Below, piece by piece: positions 12,973 through 56,306 of a DNA stretch of 64,000 nt. The notes below the pieces were generated by a model. It ran no database searches. It was not told where the DNA came from and saw only the letters and a list, made by a program, of their open reading frames with translations. The stretch lies in contig RXJJ01000009.1 of NCBI GenBank assembly GCA_003963145.1, positions 255,749 to 319,748 of the forward strand, written 5' to 3'. The stretch is from Bradyrhizobiaceae bacterium. Its GTDB lineage: Bacteria; Pseudomonadota; Alphaproteobacteria; Rhizobiales; Xanthobacteraceae. Every line of letters begins with the position of its first letter. The first letter of the stretch is position 1. The position numbers and the translations under genes are program-made.

Positions 12973-13002
12973 AAAGGGCCCCGCCAGCGCGGGGCCCTTT
13001 TT
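12973..13002 (+). terminator. Rho-independent terminator after the L,D-transpeptidase gene
   Basis: A 12-bp perfect stem (12973-12984 with 12989-13000), a CAGC loop, GC-rich inner pairs and a T-run. It is symmetric, but it lies 50 bases after the transpeptidase stop and the next gene starts at 13197 on the same strand, so it separates the two. Confidence 0.9.
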
Positions 13003-22033: not shown

Positions 22034-23245
22034 ATGATGAATGACACAGTCCAAGAAGACGCTTCGGCACGGCCGACATTCGGCAAGCGAAAGATCAAAC
22101 CGCGCCTGTGCATTGTCGAAAACAAGCAGCACATTCTGACGTTGCTCGGCGATACCCTCGAGGATCAGGGTTTCATTCCCACGCCCTGCAGCAGGCTCGA
22201 TGACCTCGGCGGCATTCTTGAAACAGTGCTGCCGGATGTCGTCATTGTGCCGACATCGGTGAATGGCTTACCGACGCACGACATCATCCATGCCCTCGCG
22301 GCCGGCCGCTTTCCTGGAAAAGTGCTGCTGATTGGGCCTTCGGTCGCGCCAGCGGTCGCTGCGGCTCGCGAACTTTGCGGAAAACTCGGCCTCGATCTGC
22401 TGCCCGTCCTCGCCACTCCTTTCCGCGAAGAGGATCTGTTTAACAGCGTGGCCTCGCTGGTGCCGGCCCAGGCCCCGCCTCCACCGCCTGTCGATGTGAC
22501 GGAAGCTCTGGACGCGGGGTGGCTGGAACTCTGGTATCAACCCAAAATCGATATCCGCACCATGGCGCTCGGCGGTGCGGAAGCCCTGATTCGCATGCGT
22601 CATCCGACGTGGGGGATCGTGCCGCCCGCTTATTTCATTCCGGACGGAAGCGACCCGCATTTTCGCGACCTGTCGCGATTTGTCATCGGGCGGGTGTTCG
22701 AGGACTGGCGTTATCTCGCCACGCATCTGGGGCGGATTCATCTGTCCATCAATCTGCCGATATCCTTCTTCCGCGAGCCCGGCGCGATCGGGGATTTGCG
22801 CGCGCAATTTCCCGATCATCCCGCGTTTGACGGCCTCACCGTGGAAGTCGCCAGCAGCGAGGTGACGGGCAACCTCGCCCTCGCGACGGAGGCGGCAAGG
22901 CAGATGCGGTTTCACCATATCGGCTTTTCAATCGACAATGTCGGCGAGGAATGGCCGCTGCTGGTGGGGCTGAGCGAATTTCCCTTCGCCGAGATAAAAC
23001 TGGATCGCGAATTCGTTGACGGAAGTTCGTCCGAACCTTTGAAGCGATCGGTATGCCGCCACATCGCCGATCTCGCCAACGATTACGGCGCGCGAACCGT
23101 CGCCGAGGGCGTGGAGACCAAAGAGGACTTCCGCGCGATGCACGACATCGGCGTGGACGCGATTCAGGGCTTTCTGTTCGGGCGACCGATGGCCGCACGC
23201 AAATTCGCGCGCGACATGCGCGGCGGCCTCGTCTTCAAGGTCTAG
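22034..23245 (+). CDS. EAL-domain protein with pseudo-receiver, probably not an active phosphodiesterase
   Basis: A 403-residue protein. Residues about 20-140 resemble a receiver domain (RLCIVENKQHILTLLGDTL) but lack the phosphoacceptor Asp (VVIVPTS where VLLDLxMP is expected). Residues about 155-395 are an EAL domain. The EALIR start, the Asn of INLP, the Lys of IKLDREF, EGVET and QGFLFGRP are kept. The metal-binding loop DDFGTG is changed to DNVGEE, and the TES motif reads ASS. This suggests a c-di-GMP-binding or protein-interaction role rather than hydrolysis. ATG 22034 follows an AAAGGGGGAA site. Confidence 0.85.
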   Translation: MMNDTVQEDASARPTFGKRKIKPRLCIVENKQHILTLLGDTLEDQGFIPTPCSRLDDLGGILETVLPDVVIVPTSVNGLPTHDIIHALAAGRFPGKVLLIGPSVAPAVAAARELCGKLGLDLLPVLATPFREEDLFNSVASLVPAQAPPPPPVDVTEALDAGWLELWYQPKIDIRTMALGGAEALIRMRHPTWGIVPPAYFIPDGSDPHFRDLSRFVIGRVFEDWRYLATHLGRIHLSINLPISFFREPGAIGDLRAQFPDHPAFDGLTVEVASSEVTGNLALATEAARQMRFHHIGFSIDNVGEEWPLLVGLSEFPFAEIKLDREFVDGSSSEPLKRSVCRHIADLANDYGARTVAEGVETKEDFRAMHDIGVDAIQGFLFGRPMAARKFARDMRGGLVFKV

Positions 23246-23267
23246 GCGTCTTTAGTTAGCCGTCTTG

Positions 23268-23675
23268 TCAGTTAGCCGTTTTGCCGAAAGCCTTGCGCAA
23301 TTCGTCCTTTGCCGCATCAAGTTTCTTGCGGCGCGCGGCGGAGAGGTTTTTGCCAGCACGGTTGATGTAGAACACCAGCATCGACATCGCCGACCGGTAG
23401 GGGTTGCTTTTACGCCGATTGCTGTGCTCGGCAGATCGCTTGAGCGATCGCGCGATGGCCTTCGGACTATTCAACTTGAAGACGTCACGCTTCAGATCAA
23501 GCGCGTCGCTGGTCTGCGTCACCCGTGCCGACCATTTCTGGCCGGCTCTTTTTCGCGCCGTCTTGCGGCCCGAAGTTTTGCGTACCCTCGCGCTTTTACG
23601 CGTGCCGTGTGAAGATTTCGCCGTTCGTTTGCGCGAGGCGGACTTGCGGGTGGTCTTATGTGCGGCCTTGGCCAT
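23268..23675 (-). CDS. DUF3175 protein with a basic histone-like tail
   Basis: A 135-residue protein. Residues 1-47 are very rich in Lys, Arg, Ser and Thr (e.g. KTTRKSASRKRTAKSS), like histone H1-type nucleic-acid-binding tails. Residues 48-130 are DUF3175 (WSARVTQTSDALDL, then RSLKRSAEHSNRRKSNPYRSAMSMLVFYINRAG, split here). Its function is unknown; nucleic-acid binding is inferred from the charge. Its ribosome-binding site AGGAGAA lies inside a perfect 13-bp hairpin ending 4 bases before the start codon, so translation is probably controlled. It is convergent with the EAL gene. Confidence 0.85.
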   Translation of the reverse strand: MAKAAHKTTRKSASRKRTAKSSHGTRKSARVRKTSGRKTARKRAGQKWSARVTQTSDALDLKRDVFKLNSPKAIARSLKRSAEHSNRRKSNPYRSAMSMLVFYINRAGKNLSAARRKKLDAAKDELRKAFGKTAN

Positions 23676-23679
23676 GACA

Positions 23680-23712
23680 TTCTCCTGTCCGACATTTCAT
23701 CGGACAGGAGAA
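23680..23712 (-). promoter_or_regulatory. Hairpin that masks the ribosome-binding site of the DUF3175 gene
   Basis: In the minus-strand transcript, UUCUCCUGUCCGA pairs without mismatch with UCGGACAGGAGAA across a 7-base loop. The 3' arm contains the whole Shine-Dalgarno sequence AGGAG, 6 bases from AUG 23675. No U-run follows, so it does not look like an intrinsic terminator of the upstream FAH gene. It could instead be a DNA palindrome bound by a protein. Confidence 0.8.
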
Positions 23713-23732
23713 AGCGCAAAGCAAAATTAAGT

Positions 23733-24596
23733 TCAGACAAATTTGTTTTCGATTCGGCCGATGCCGGAAATCTCCATCGCCACCACGTCACCCGCCTTCA
23801 GGAATTTCGGCGGCTTGAAGCCGAGACCGACACCGGCGGGCGTGCCGGTCGCGATCAGATCGCCCGGCTCGAGCGCCAATCCCTGCGAAATGGTCGAGAC
23901 GAGGGTCGGGATATCGAAAATCAGGTCGCTGCTATTCGCATTCTGGCGCGGCTCGCCATTGACCCAGCTTTTCACCGTCAGGTTTTCGGCATCGAGTTCG
24001 TCGGATGTGACGATCCACGGTCCCATCGGGCAGAAAGTATCAAGATTTTTACCGAGGAACCATTGTTTATGATTCTTCTGCCGGTCGCGCGCCGTCACAT
24101 CATTCACGATGGTGTATCCGAATATGTGCTTCCAGGCGTCGGCCTTGGCGATGTCCCGTCCGGCCTTGCCGATCACGATGGTGAGCTCGACCTCGTAATC
24201 GACGCTTGAGGTGATATGCGAGTGAAGCTGCACATCATCGTATGGGCCGACCACGGTATTGAAGCCCTTGCTGAATACAGCGGGATATTCATCGATCTCA
24301 GCGCCTTTCACCGCGCCGGCCTCGAAACCGCTGCCGGCGAACTCTCGGGCATGCTCGCCGTAATTCTTGCCGACGCAAAAGATGTTTCGGTCTGGTTTGG
24401 GGATCGGCGCCAACAGTTTGACGTCGCGCACAGCGATACCCGAACCGCCAGACGGGAAAGTCTCCTTGATCTCGGCGTAACGCGCGATCAGATCGACCAT
24501 GTCGCCGACGCCGGGAAGTGGCCGCACTGTATCCGCCGCAGCATCGACAAGGCCGACATGGAGAGAGCCGTTATAGGAAAAGGTGGCGAACTTCAT
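23733..24596 (-). CDS. Fumarylacetoacetate hydrolase family protein
   Basis: A 287-residue member of the FAH superfamily, which hydrolyses or decarboxylates acylpyruvates and related diketo acids. The N-terminal small domain is followed by the catalytic domain starting CVGKNYGEHAREF. Metal-binding acidic residues are in VDYEVELTIVIGK (E-x-E), and the ending GTPAGVGLGFKPP is typical. It is downstream of a Bug-type binding protein and a LysR regulator on the same strand (38-base and 120-base gaps), so the three may form a small catabolic operon. The substrate is unknown. Confidence 0.88.
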   Translation of the reverse strand: MKFATFSYNGSLHVGLVDAAADTVRPLPGVGDMVDLIARYAEIKETFPSGGSGIAVRDVKLLAPIPKPDRNIFCVGKNYGEHAREFAGSGFEAGAVKGAEIDEYPAVFSKGFNTVVGPYDDVQLHSHITSSVDYEVELTIVIGKAGRDIAKADAWKHIFGYTIVNDVTARDRQKNHKQWFLGKNLDTFCPMGPWIVTSDELDAENLTVKSWVNGEPRQNANSSDLIFDIPTLVSTISQGLALEPGDLIATGTPAGVGLGFKPPKFLKAGDVVAMEISGIGRIENKFV

Positions 24597-24634
24597 TTCG
24601 GATTTCCACTTGTTTGAAACTCAGTGCGAAAGAC

Positions 24635-25633
24635 TTACTCGACCTTGCCGATCTTGTTCACCGCAGCGATCAGCCGCGCGCTGTCCGCTTCGACGAATGT
24701 GGCGAACTCCGGCGCGTCGAGATAGGCGACCGGGCTGCCCGCAGCCTCGAACGTCCTGACCACCTCCGGAGACTGCACGGCTTCCTTCATCGCCTCGCGC
24801 AGCCGTGTCATGATCGGGGCAGGCAGCGCCTGCTGCGCAAACAGACCGGCCCATATGTAAAACTCGACATCCTTGTAGCCGATTTCCTGAAAAGTGGGCA
24901 CATCGGGAAAGCTCGCGACGCGCTTCGCGCCCCAGCACGCCAGCACCCGCATCTTGCCGTCATCGACGTGGGCGCGCACCGTGCCCGGCGCGGTCGCAAC
25001 CGCCTGAACCGTGCCGGTCAGCAAACCCGTCAGAGCCGGCCCAGCGCCACGGAACGGCACGTGCAGAAGTTTGATTCCGGCATTTGCCGCAAGCATCTCC
25101 ATCGCGATATGCAGCGTGCCATAAGGACCGGACGAGCCATAGGGAATTTCGCCGGGACGCTTTTTCGCATCTTCGATAAAGTCCTGCACCGTCTTCCACG
25201 GCGCGGACGCCGGCACTGTCAGCATGGTCGGATCGGCCAGCACCCGCGCGACCGGTGAAAACTGGGAAACCTCATACGCGACCGGGCGGCCAAACAGCCG
25301 ATCGGCCTCCGGCAACACCGCCAGCGAGGACAGGGTCATCAACAGCGTGTAACCGTCCGGCTCTGCGCGCGCCGCAGCGGCGTTGCCGACCGAGCCGCCC
25401 CCTCCTCCCGCGCGGTTATCCACGACCACCGGCTTGCCGAGAATCCGCTCCAGCGACAGCGCAACCGGACGCGCCGCAAGATCGGCCTGCCCGCCGGCGG
25501 GAAACGGCACGATCATCGTGACGGTGCGTGACGGCCACGCCGCCTGAGCATGTACCGGACTCGATAGGACTGGCATGGCAAGTTGAGACAGCGGCAAAGC
25601 CGCAGCCGCCTTGAGAAGATCGCGGCGATCCAT
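24635..25633 (-). CDS. Tripartite tricarboxylate transporter (Bug family) substrate-binding protein
   Basis: A 332-residue periplasmic binding protein of the TctC/Bug family, which binds small carboxylic acids. The N-terminus MDRRDLLKAAAALPLSQLAMP is a twin-arginine signal. The Bug signatures are VPFPAGGQADLAARPVA, VVVDNRAGGGGGSVG and the pocket loop YGSSGPYGTLHIAMEML. No TctA/TctB membrane subunits are near, as for many orphan Bug proteins. Start ATG 25633 has a GGAGG site. It lies between a LysR gene and an FAH gene on the same strand. The ligand is unknown. Confidence 0.9.
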   Translation of the reverse strand: MDRRDLLKAAAALPLSQLAMPVLSSPVHAQAAWPSRTVTMIVPFPAGGQADLAARPVALSLERILGKPVVVDNRAGGGGGSVGNAAAARAEPDGYTLLMTLSSLAVLPEADRLFGRPVAYEVSQFSPVARVLADPTMLTVPASAPWKTVQDFIEDAKKRPGEIPYGSSGPYGTLHIAMEMLAANAGIKLLHVPFRGAGPALTGLLTGTVQAVATAPGTVRAHVDDGKMRVLACWGAKRVASFPDVPTFQEIGYKDVEFYIWAGLFAQQALPAPIMTRLREAMKEAVQSPEVVRTFEAAGSPVAYLDAPEFATFVEADSARLIAAVNKIGKVE

Positions 25634-56254: not shown

Positions 56255-56284
56255 AAAAAAGGGCGGCGAATGATCGCCGCCCTT
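56255..56284 (-). terminator. Rho-independent terminator of metE
   Basis: On the minus strand an 11-bp stem (AAGGGCGGCGA with TCGCCGCCCTT), a 4-base loop and a run of six T. It lies 23 bases after the metE stop. Confidence 0.9.
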
Positions 56285-56306
56285 CTTGACAGAGATTGAA
56301 AACGAC

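Follow-up and report, generated by a model that had tools for sequence, protein, structure and literature searches.

The window, a 64,000-nt stretch of a Bradyrhizobiaceae contig, carries on its minus strand a gene for a DUF3175 protein and, 57 nt ahead of it in the same direction, a gene for an FAA hydrolase (FAH), which is itself preceded by a TctC-type receptor gene. The features considered here lie within and between these genes:

23268..23675, minus: DUF3175 gene, 135 aa, with a Lys/Arg-rich N-terminal tail (PF11373, E = 2.4e-42)
23733..24596, minus: FAH gene (PF01557), likely source of read-through mRNA, with no terminator-like site at 23500-24000
23680..23712, minus: perfect 13-bp hairpin with a 7-nt loop (sequence, inverted-repeat scan, folding of the mRNA strand)
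23712-23700, minus, 5' to 3': hairpin 5' arm UUCUCCUGUCCGA
23699-23693, minus: hairpin loop UGAAAUG
23692-23680, minus: hairpin 3' arm UCGGACAGGAGAA
23682..23686, minus: Shine-Dalgarno (SD) AGGAG of the DUF3175 gene, within the 3' arm (sequence, opening energies)
23711..23734, minus: putative EcfG-type promoter GAAC (23734-23731)-N16-CTTT (23714-23711) (motif in relatives)
23702..23704, minus: predicted transcription start, 7-9 nt past the -10 box, within the 5' arm (inferred from RpoE2 spacing in one published table and from folding)

The DUF3175 protein had no match among solved structures and none in PADLOC, and a full-text literature search for the term "DUF3175" returned no paper. Its gene was present in 16 of 29 genomes of the genus and in 167 of 391 genomes of the family.

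The original prediction had placed the SD inside a perfect 13-bp hairpin with a 7-base loop that ends 4 bases before the AUG, and sequence and in silico folding bear this out: all 13 pairs are Watson-Crick, and the 4-nt linker UGUC separates the 3' arm from the AUG at 23675. The FAH stop at 23733 also lies, as had been claimed, 20 nt ahead of the 5' arm. The isolated hairpin has a folding energy of -24.3 kcal/mol, and the mRNA strand at 23655-23725 folded 6.3 standard deviations below a set of 200 dinucleotide shuffles and was matched by none of them, while the opposite (plus) strand, folded likewise, gave a z of -2.66 with 1 of 200 shuffles as good. On the 379-kb contig (window included, 150 masked bases excluded), stems of at least 13 bp with loops of 3-10 nt occurred six times, this hairpin among them, as against none in each of 10 random first-order Markov sequences of equal length. 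Among the remaining stems, three were flagged intergenic and two fell within open frames of at least 150 aa. The hairpin is real. Elsewhere in the window, two strong stems with 4-nt loops (56256-56287 and 12973-13000) look like ordinary terminators. A 90-aa open frame (23519-23791, minus) runs out of frame from the end of FAH through the hairpin into the beginning of DUF3175; it has an AUG within the hairpin loop and is probably due to chance in G+C-rich DNA.

Upstream of the DUF3175 gene, the scan of 23500-24000 contained no sigma-70-like promoter, and a sigma-70 reading was rejected. The window does contain TGAAC-N16-CTTT; its GAAC shares bases with the stop codon of FAH, and its CTTT runs two bases into the 5' arm. 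The general stress motif is given as GGAAC-N16-CGTT in the excerpt of PMC7083833 and as GGAAC-N17-20-GTT in that of PMC6599016; the former also reports, for another species, that single changes from CGTT reduced in vitro transcription. Like the EcfG/RpoE2 promoters of Alphaproteobacteria, the window sequence has a 16-nt spacer and the core AAC, but it differs from them in its boxes (TGAAC and CTTT, each off by one base from GGAAC and CGTT) and in overlapping an SD-containing inverted repeat. Throughout the window's genome, the strict motif GGAAC-N16/17-CGTT is found at 71 sites and its reversed pattern at 97, so that the motif is not enriched and a single site means little without its position and its presence in relatives. 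The same genome has a NepR above the cut-off, adjoined by two frames that, by their features, we take to be EcfG-like and PhyR-like.

Of 60 further leaders from the family, 33 had the strict motif ahead of DUF3175 (30 at N16, 3 at N17; 200 nt before the match scanned); these leaders are kin and therefore not independent cases. A spacer of N15 gave 3, other spacers from 5 to 31 gave 0-2 and the reversed control gave 0-1. The first 40 of these leaders were taken by E-value among the 167 DUF3175 genomes, below the 30 already taken as loci and skipping G368, G351, G353 and G390, and the last 20 were chosen for genus spread, all 60 before their upstream sequence was seen. Within the genus, GAAC-N16/17-C[GT]TT occurred within 250 nt upstream of DUF3175 in 15 of 16 loci, including the window and the relative G019, and the remaining locus, L004, has GAAC-N16-TGTT. 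Outside the family, 59 of 80 loci were used, sorted by record titles: the strict motif was uncommon, being present in 2 of 18 alphaproteobacterial loci, with the looser GAAC-N16/17-[CTG]GTT in at most 4, and the 41 loci from other phyla or classes had neither form at N16 or N17. A search of the class located DUF3175 in 15 of 289 genomes; of 10 loci inspected, 7 could be oriented, and 2 of these had the strict motif. These motif counts suggest that in this family the general stress response controls DUF3175, which would be a testable first lead to its role. The original prediction had expected such a first clue from a conditional translation switch; a clue there seems to be, in stress-sigma control and not in the hairpin itself.

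In 20 of the 60 family leaders (within L159-L218, among them L160, L165, L166 and L172), two EcfG-type motifs are arranged back to back (AACG-N15..17-GTTCC ... GGAAC-N16/17-CGTT), with DUF3175 on one side and a divergent frame on the other. This frame looks transporter-like by its features in the three examples translated.

Table 1 of PMC6180224, in which lower case marks start sites found by two methods, places RpoE2-activated starts 7 nt (rpoE5) or 9 nt (SMb20522, SMa0187) after the -10 box, for these three promoters and with their -10 boxes placed by eye. Carried over from that other species to the motif in the window, this spacing puts an unmapped, predicted start at 23704-23702, downstream of UCUCCU, the stretch that pairs with the SD, and the resulting mRNA would keep 3-5 nt of the 5' arm. 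The computed cost of opening the SD is 13.3-13.7 kcal/mol in the long RNA versus 0.7-1.3 kcal/mol for starts +6 to +9 (5' ends 23705-23702), and in G019 it is 7.9-8.3 versus 1.9-2.3 kcal/mol. Opening the whole stretch from SD through AUG costs 17.8-17.9 kcal/mol in the long RNA versus 5.9-7.5 in the stress RNA of the window, and 12.0-12.4 versus 5.6-7.0 in G019. In the window, the energy drops between a start at +1 (11.6) and one at +5 (1.7), so that moving the start upstream by a few bases would bring the block back. The translation block of the original prediction should therefore hold for RNA with the whole hairpin, and would not apply to the predicted mRNA from the gene's own putative promoter, whose motif ends in the 5' arm: this mRNA would start inside the hairpin and have a free SD. 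In RNA thermometers, the SD is paired within a leader hairpin, as it is in the window; however, the window stem is a perfect 13-bp helix, and SD opening falls from 14.1 kcal/mol at 20 C to 13.3 at 37 C, 11.8 at 50 C and still 10.3 at 60 C. Heat, one of the openers that had been proposed, is thus unlikely, and a thermosensor was rejected.

Although 167 of the 391 family genomes hold DUF3175, the hairpin pattern (at most 3 mismatches; built from the window and G019 hairpins, so that it would miss others such as that of L010) matched DUF3175 leaders only in the window genome, G000, and in G019. Three other family matches at 3 mismatches (L029-L031) lie in open frames of other genes and were rejected. 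Most relatives with the same gene thus lack this pairing, for which the pattern found one counterpart, in G019.

The other genus loci indicate where the 5' arm may have come from. In ten of fourteen (L003-L016), a divergent gene of one and the same kind precedes DUF3175; it translates cleanly from its start in eight (L005-L009, L015, L016 and, via its record L052, L010), lies within a longer frame in L003, and was judged by leader alone in L013, where another frame was picked in the record (L048). The divergent frame is of another kind in L011, L012 and L014, and neither kind was seen in L004; seven loci (L035, L037-L041, L045) from which no frame was obtained were left out. The one divergent gene tested matched PF04073, aminoacyl-tRNA editing, and we take it to be YbaK-like. 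FAH was sought within flanks of 1.5-2.5 kb in loci other than the 60 further family leaders; it turned up on the far side of the divergent gene in L007, L010 and L013, and as the immediate upstream neighbor of DUF3175 in the window and L002. In five relatives, the leader of the divergent gene, taken in the DUF3175 orientation, shows a gap-free alignment with the window, and GAAC-N16-CTTT-nTCCTGT is present in all seven rows of the alignment. Among seven genomes searched, no close relative of the divergent gene was found in G000 (31% match), G020 (34%) or G019 (none; genome 85% complete). Since the alignment has no gaps and no close relative of the gene turned up, the most fitting interpretation of the 5' arm is that it is what remained of a divergent tRNA-editing gene's leader after the gene was deleted. 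Where relatives keep the divergent gene, GAAC falls in its coding sequence, so that its conservation there has another cause.

Comparison of the window with G019 gave hints of selection. The inner 10 pairs are all intact in both, the innermost by way of a double change from A-U to G-C, and GAAC and CTTT are unchanged, while 12 of 27 sites differ in spacer, loop and linker; at most one change in the conserved 5' core has a p of about 0.025 on a crude rate. The G019 leader folded with a z of -2.28, with 5 of 200 shuffles as good. Compensatory changes in relatives, named in the original prediction as a check, amount to one double change, and the outer three pairs read A-G, T-T and T-G in G019. 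The double change can also come from one arm having been copied onto the other, and the kept pairs, from two sequences compared, are no more than suggestive of selection on the stem.

We also surveyed 68 DUF3175 leaders with a wider form of the motif (16 from the genus, 44 of the 60 family leaders and 8 others), after hand-excluding 17 records (repeats, no wider motif, or less than 110 nt upstream) and then dropping 2 of 70 leaders whose SD was too near the start; start codons were assigned according to SD strength, possibly wrongly in some leaders. The difference in SD opening between long and stress RNA had a median of 0.6 kcal/mol, compared with 0.55 for shuffled upstream sequence, and a family-wide tendency towards the lock was not found across these leaders. 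Within the genus, some upstream shuffles equalled the real sequence in 12 of 16 leaders, and in 9 of all 68 leaders at most 3 of 60 shuffles were as good. The window ranked first, with a difference of 12.6 kcal/mol that none of 60 shuffles reached; the only others unreached were L010 (8.2), L002 (6.2) and L013 (4.5), where chance would give about one such leader. FAH was found upstream in five loci in all: these four and L007, whose difference is 0.1. This association of FAH with the lock is a hint and no test, as FAH was sought in a minority of the 68 and its position tracks kinship. Elsewhere in the window's genome, 18 of the 41 strict EcfG-type sites examined (of 71) have a start codon and an SD suitably placed, and their largest difference is 5.9 kcal/mol, so that 12.6 kcal/mol is not typical.

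Taken together, we favor a promoter-selective translation lock, to which we give a probability of roughly 48%, just short of even. The hairpin would block RNA that reads through from FAH and spare the stress mRNA made from the EcfG-type promoter. The stress sigma factor EcfG would transcribe DUF3175 on demand from GAAC-N16-CTTT, starting within the 5' arm, and this mRNA would be translated because UCUCCU, the SD's partner in the stem, is missing from it. Read-through RNA from FAH would include the entire 5' arm, form the 13-bp hairpin and stay untranslated, so that DUF3175 would be made under stress only, even though no terminator was found between the two genes. By contrast, in L052, one of three relatives inspected, a stem with a T run follows FAH, as judged by eye. 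The 5' arm would descend from the ribosome-binding-site (RBS) leader, on the other strand, of the divergent tRNA-editing gene lost in this lineage. The hairpin, the motif counts in relatives, the arm's alignment with that leader, the failure to find a close relative of the missing gene and the computed energies are observed here, whereas EcfG's use of this promoter, the start point, read-through from FAH and selection for the lock are inferred. Against the lock, the stress RNA still pays 5.9-7.5 kcal/mol for opening from SD through AUG, the hairpin occurs in two genomes only, and the motif, off by one base in each box, may serve EcfG poorly. The original prediction as a whole is partly supported; of the two findings that it had named as refuting it, transcription starting within the hairpin and relatives that have the gene without the pairing, each applies in part.

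The main rival, which ranks close behind the lock and which we consider possible but on the unlikely side, is that the hairpin is a relic palindrome with no selected role: the leader of the lost divergent gene remained as the 5' arm, where two head-to-head SDs over a short gap formed an imperfect inverted repeat that copying between arms made perfect. Such an origin fits the gap-free alignment with the divergent gene's leader in five relatives and the lack of a close PF04073 relative in G000 and in G019, and also L052, which keeps the divergent gene and whose predicted fold already pairs start codon to start codon, in a different register; head-to-head SDs tend to give start-to-start pairing by themselves. 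The rarity of the hairpin and the lack of any tendency over the 68 leaders are likewise what a relic would give. Set against this are the 10 of 10 inner pairs kept in two genomes diverged enough to differ at 12 of 27 neighboring sites, one of them by a double change, and the long RNA would still be blocked whatever the hairpin's origin.

It is improbable that the hairpin is instead a protein operator, the FAH terminator or a 3'-end stabilizer of FAH mRNA. It is a long dyad between genes, as are the three other long stems of the contig flagged intergenic; however, an SD within the stem would then be a coincidence, and neither arm has a further exact copy in the genome (the only exact matches are the hairpin's own two arms), so that a repeat family or shared operator was rejected. 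With up to 2 mismatches, the arm matched 136 genome sites, compared with 54 for the reversed pattern. An intrinsic terminator was rejected and, like a thermosensor, is unlikely, given that the scan of 23500-24000 returned no terminator-like site and no T run flanks the hairpin on either side. Least probable of all is the conditional RNA switch of the original prediction, in which the normal mRNA has the whole hairpin and heat, a helicase, a small RNA or a passing ribosome opens it: the SD is indeed buried in RNA with the whole leader and the two genes run in the same direction 57 nt apart, but the SD would still cost 10.3 kcal/mol to open at 60 C, the stress promoter motif would start transcription inside the arm, FAH ribosomes halt 20 nt short of the hairpin, and the only two Rfam matches at 23200-24700 (E 0.16 and 0.6) were under the gathering score and were rejected.

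The closest likeness to the promoter-selective lock is found in phage T4. According to excerpts of PMC3014915 and PMC2988022, long upstream transcripts of the gene e and I-TevI leaders fold a stem that hides the RBS, whereas transcripts from a nearby promoter lack the 5' part of that stem. As in gene e, the RBS in the window is sequestered in the long transcript (computed SD opening 13.3-13.7 kcal/mol). The motif together with the spacing in the published table would put the predicted start inside the 5' strand of the stem. The two differ in that DUF3175 is a chromosomal, bacterial gene, that the switch would be general stress and not infection time, and that its start is predicted only. No bacterial precedent for such a combination was recognised among the titles and abstract openings returned by a literature search. 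More tentatively than for the lock at this one locus, we propose that a stress-sigma start within an RBS-hiding hairpin restricts translation of a chromosomal gene to the mRNA from its stress promoter, with the lock derived from the RBS of a deleted divergent gene, and that L010 and L013, where FAH is upstream too, achieve this with different sequences. If true, gating of translation by promoter choice would extend from phage T4 to a bacterial stress gene, and the locus would show a lock arising from the leader of a deleted neighbor.

By record titles, the loci L063-L125 show that DUF3175, with a conserved core of WS..VT and SAMSM, is present outside Alphaproteobacteria as well (e.g., in Marinobacter, Pedobacter and Chloroflexi MAGs), and two IMG/VR contigs (L126 and L127, viral_contigs) carry DUF3175 relatives with 48% and 63% identity.
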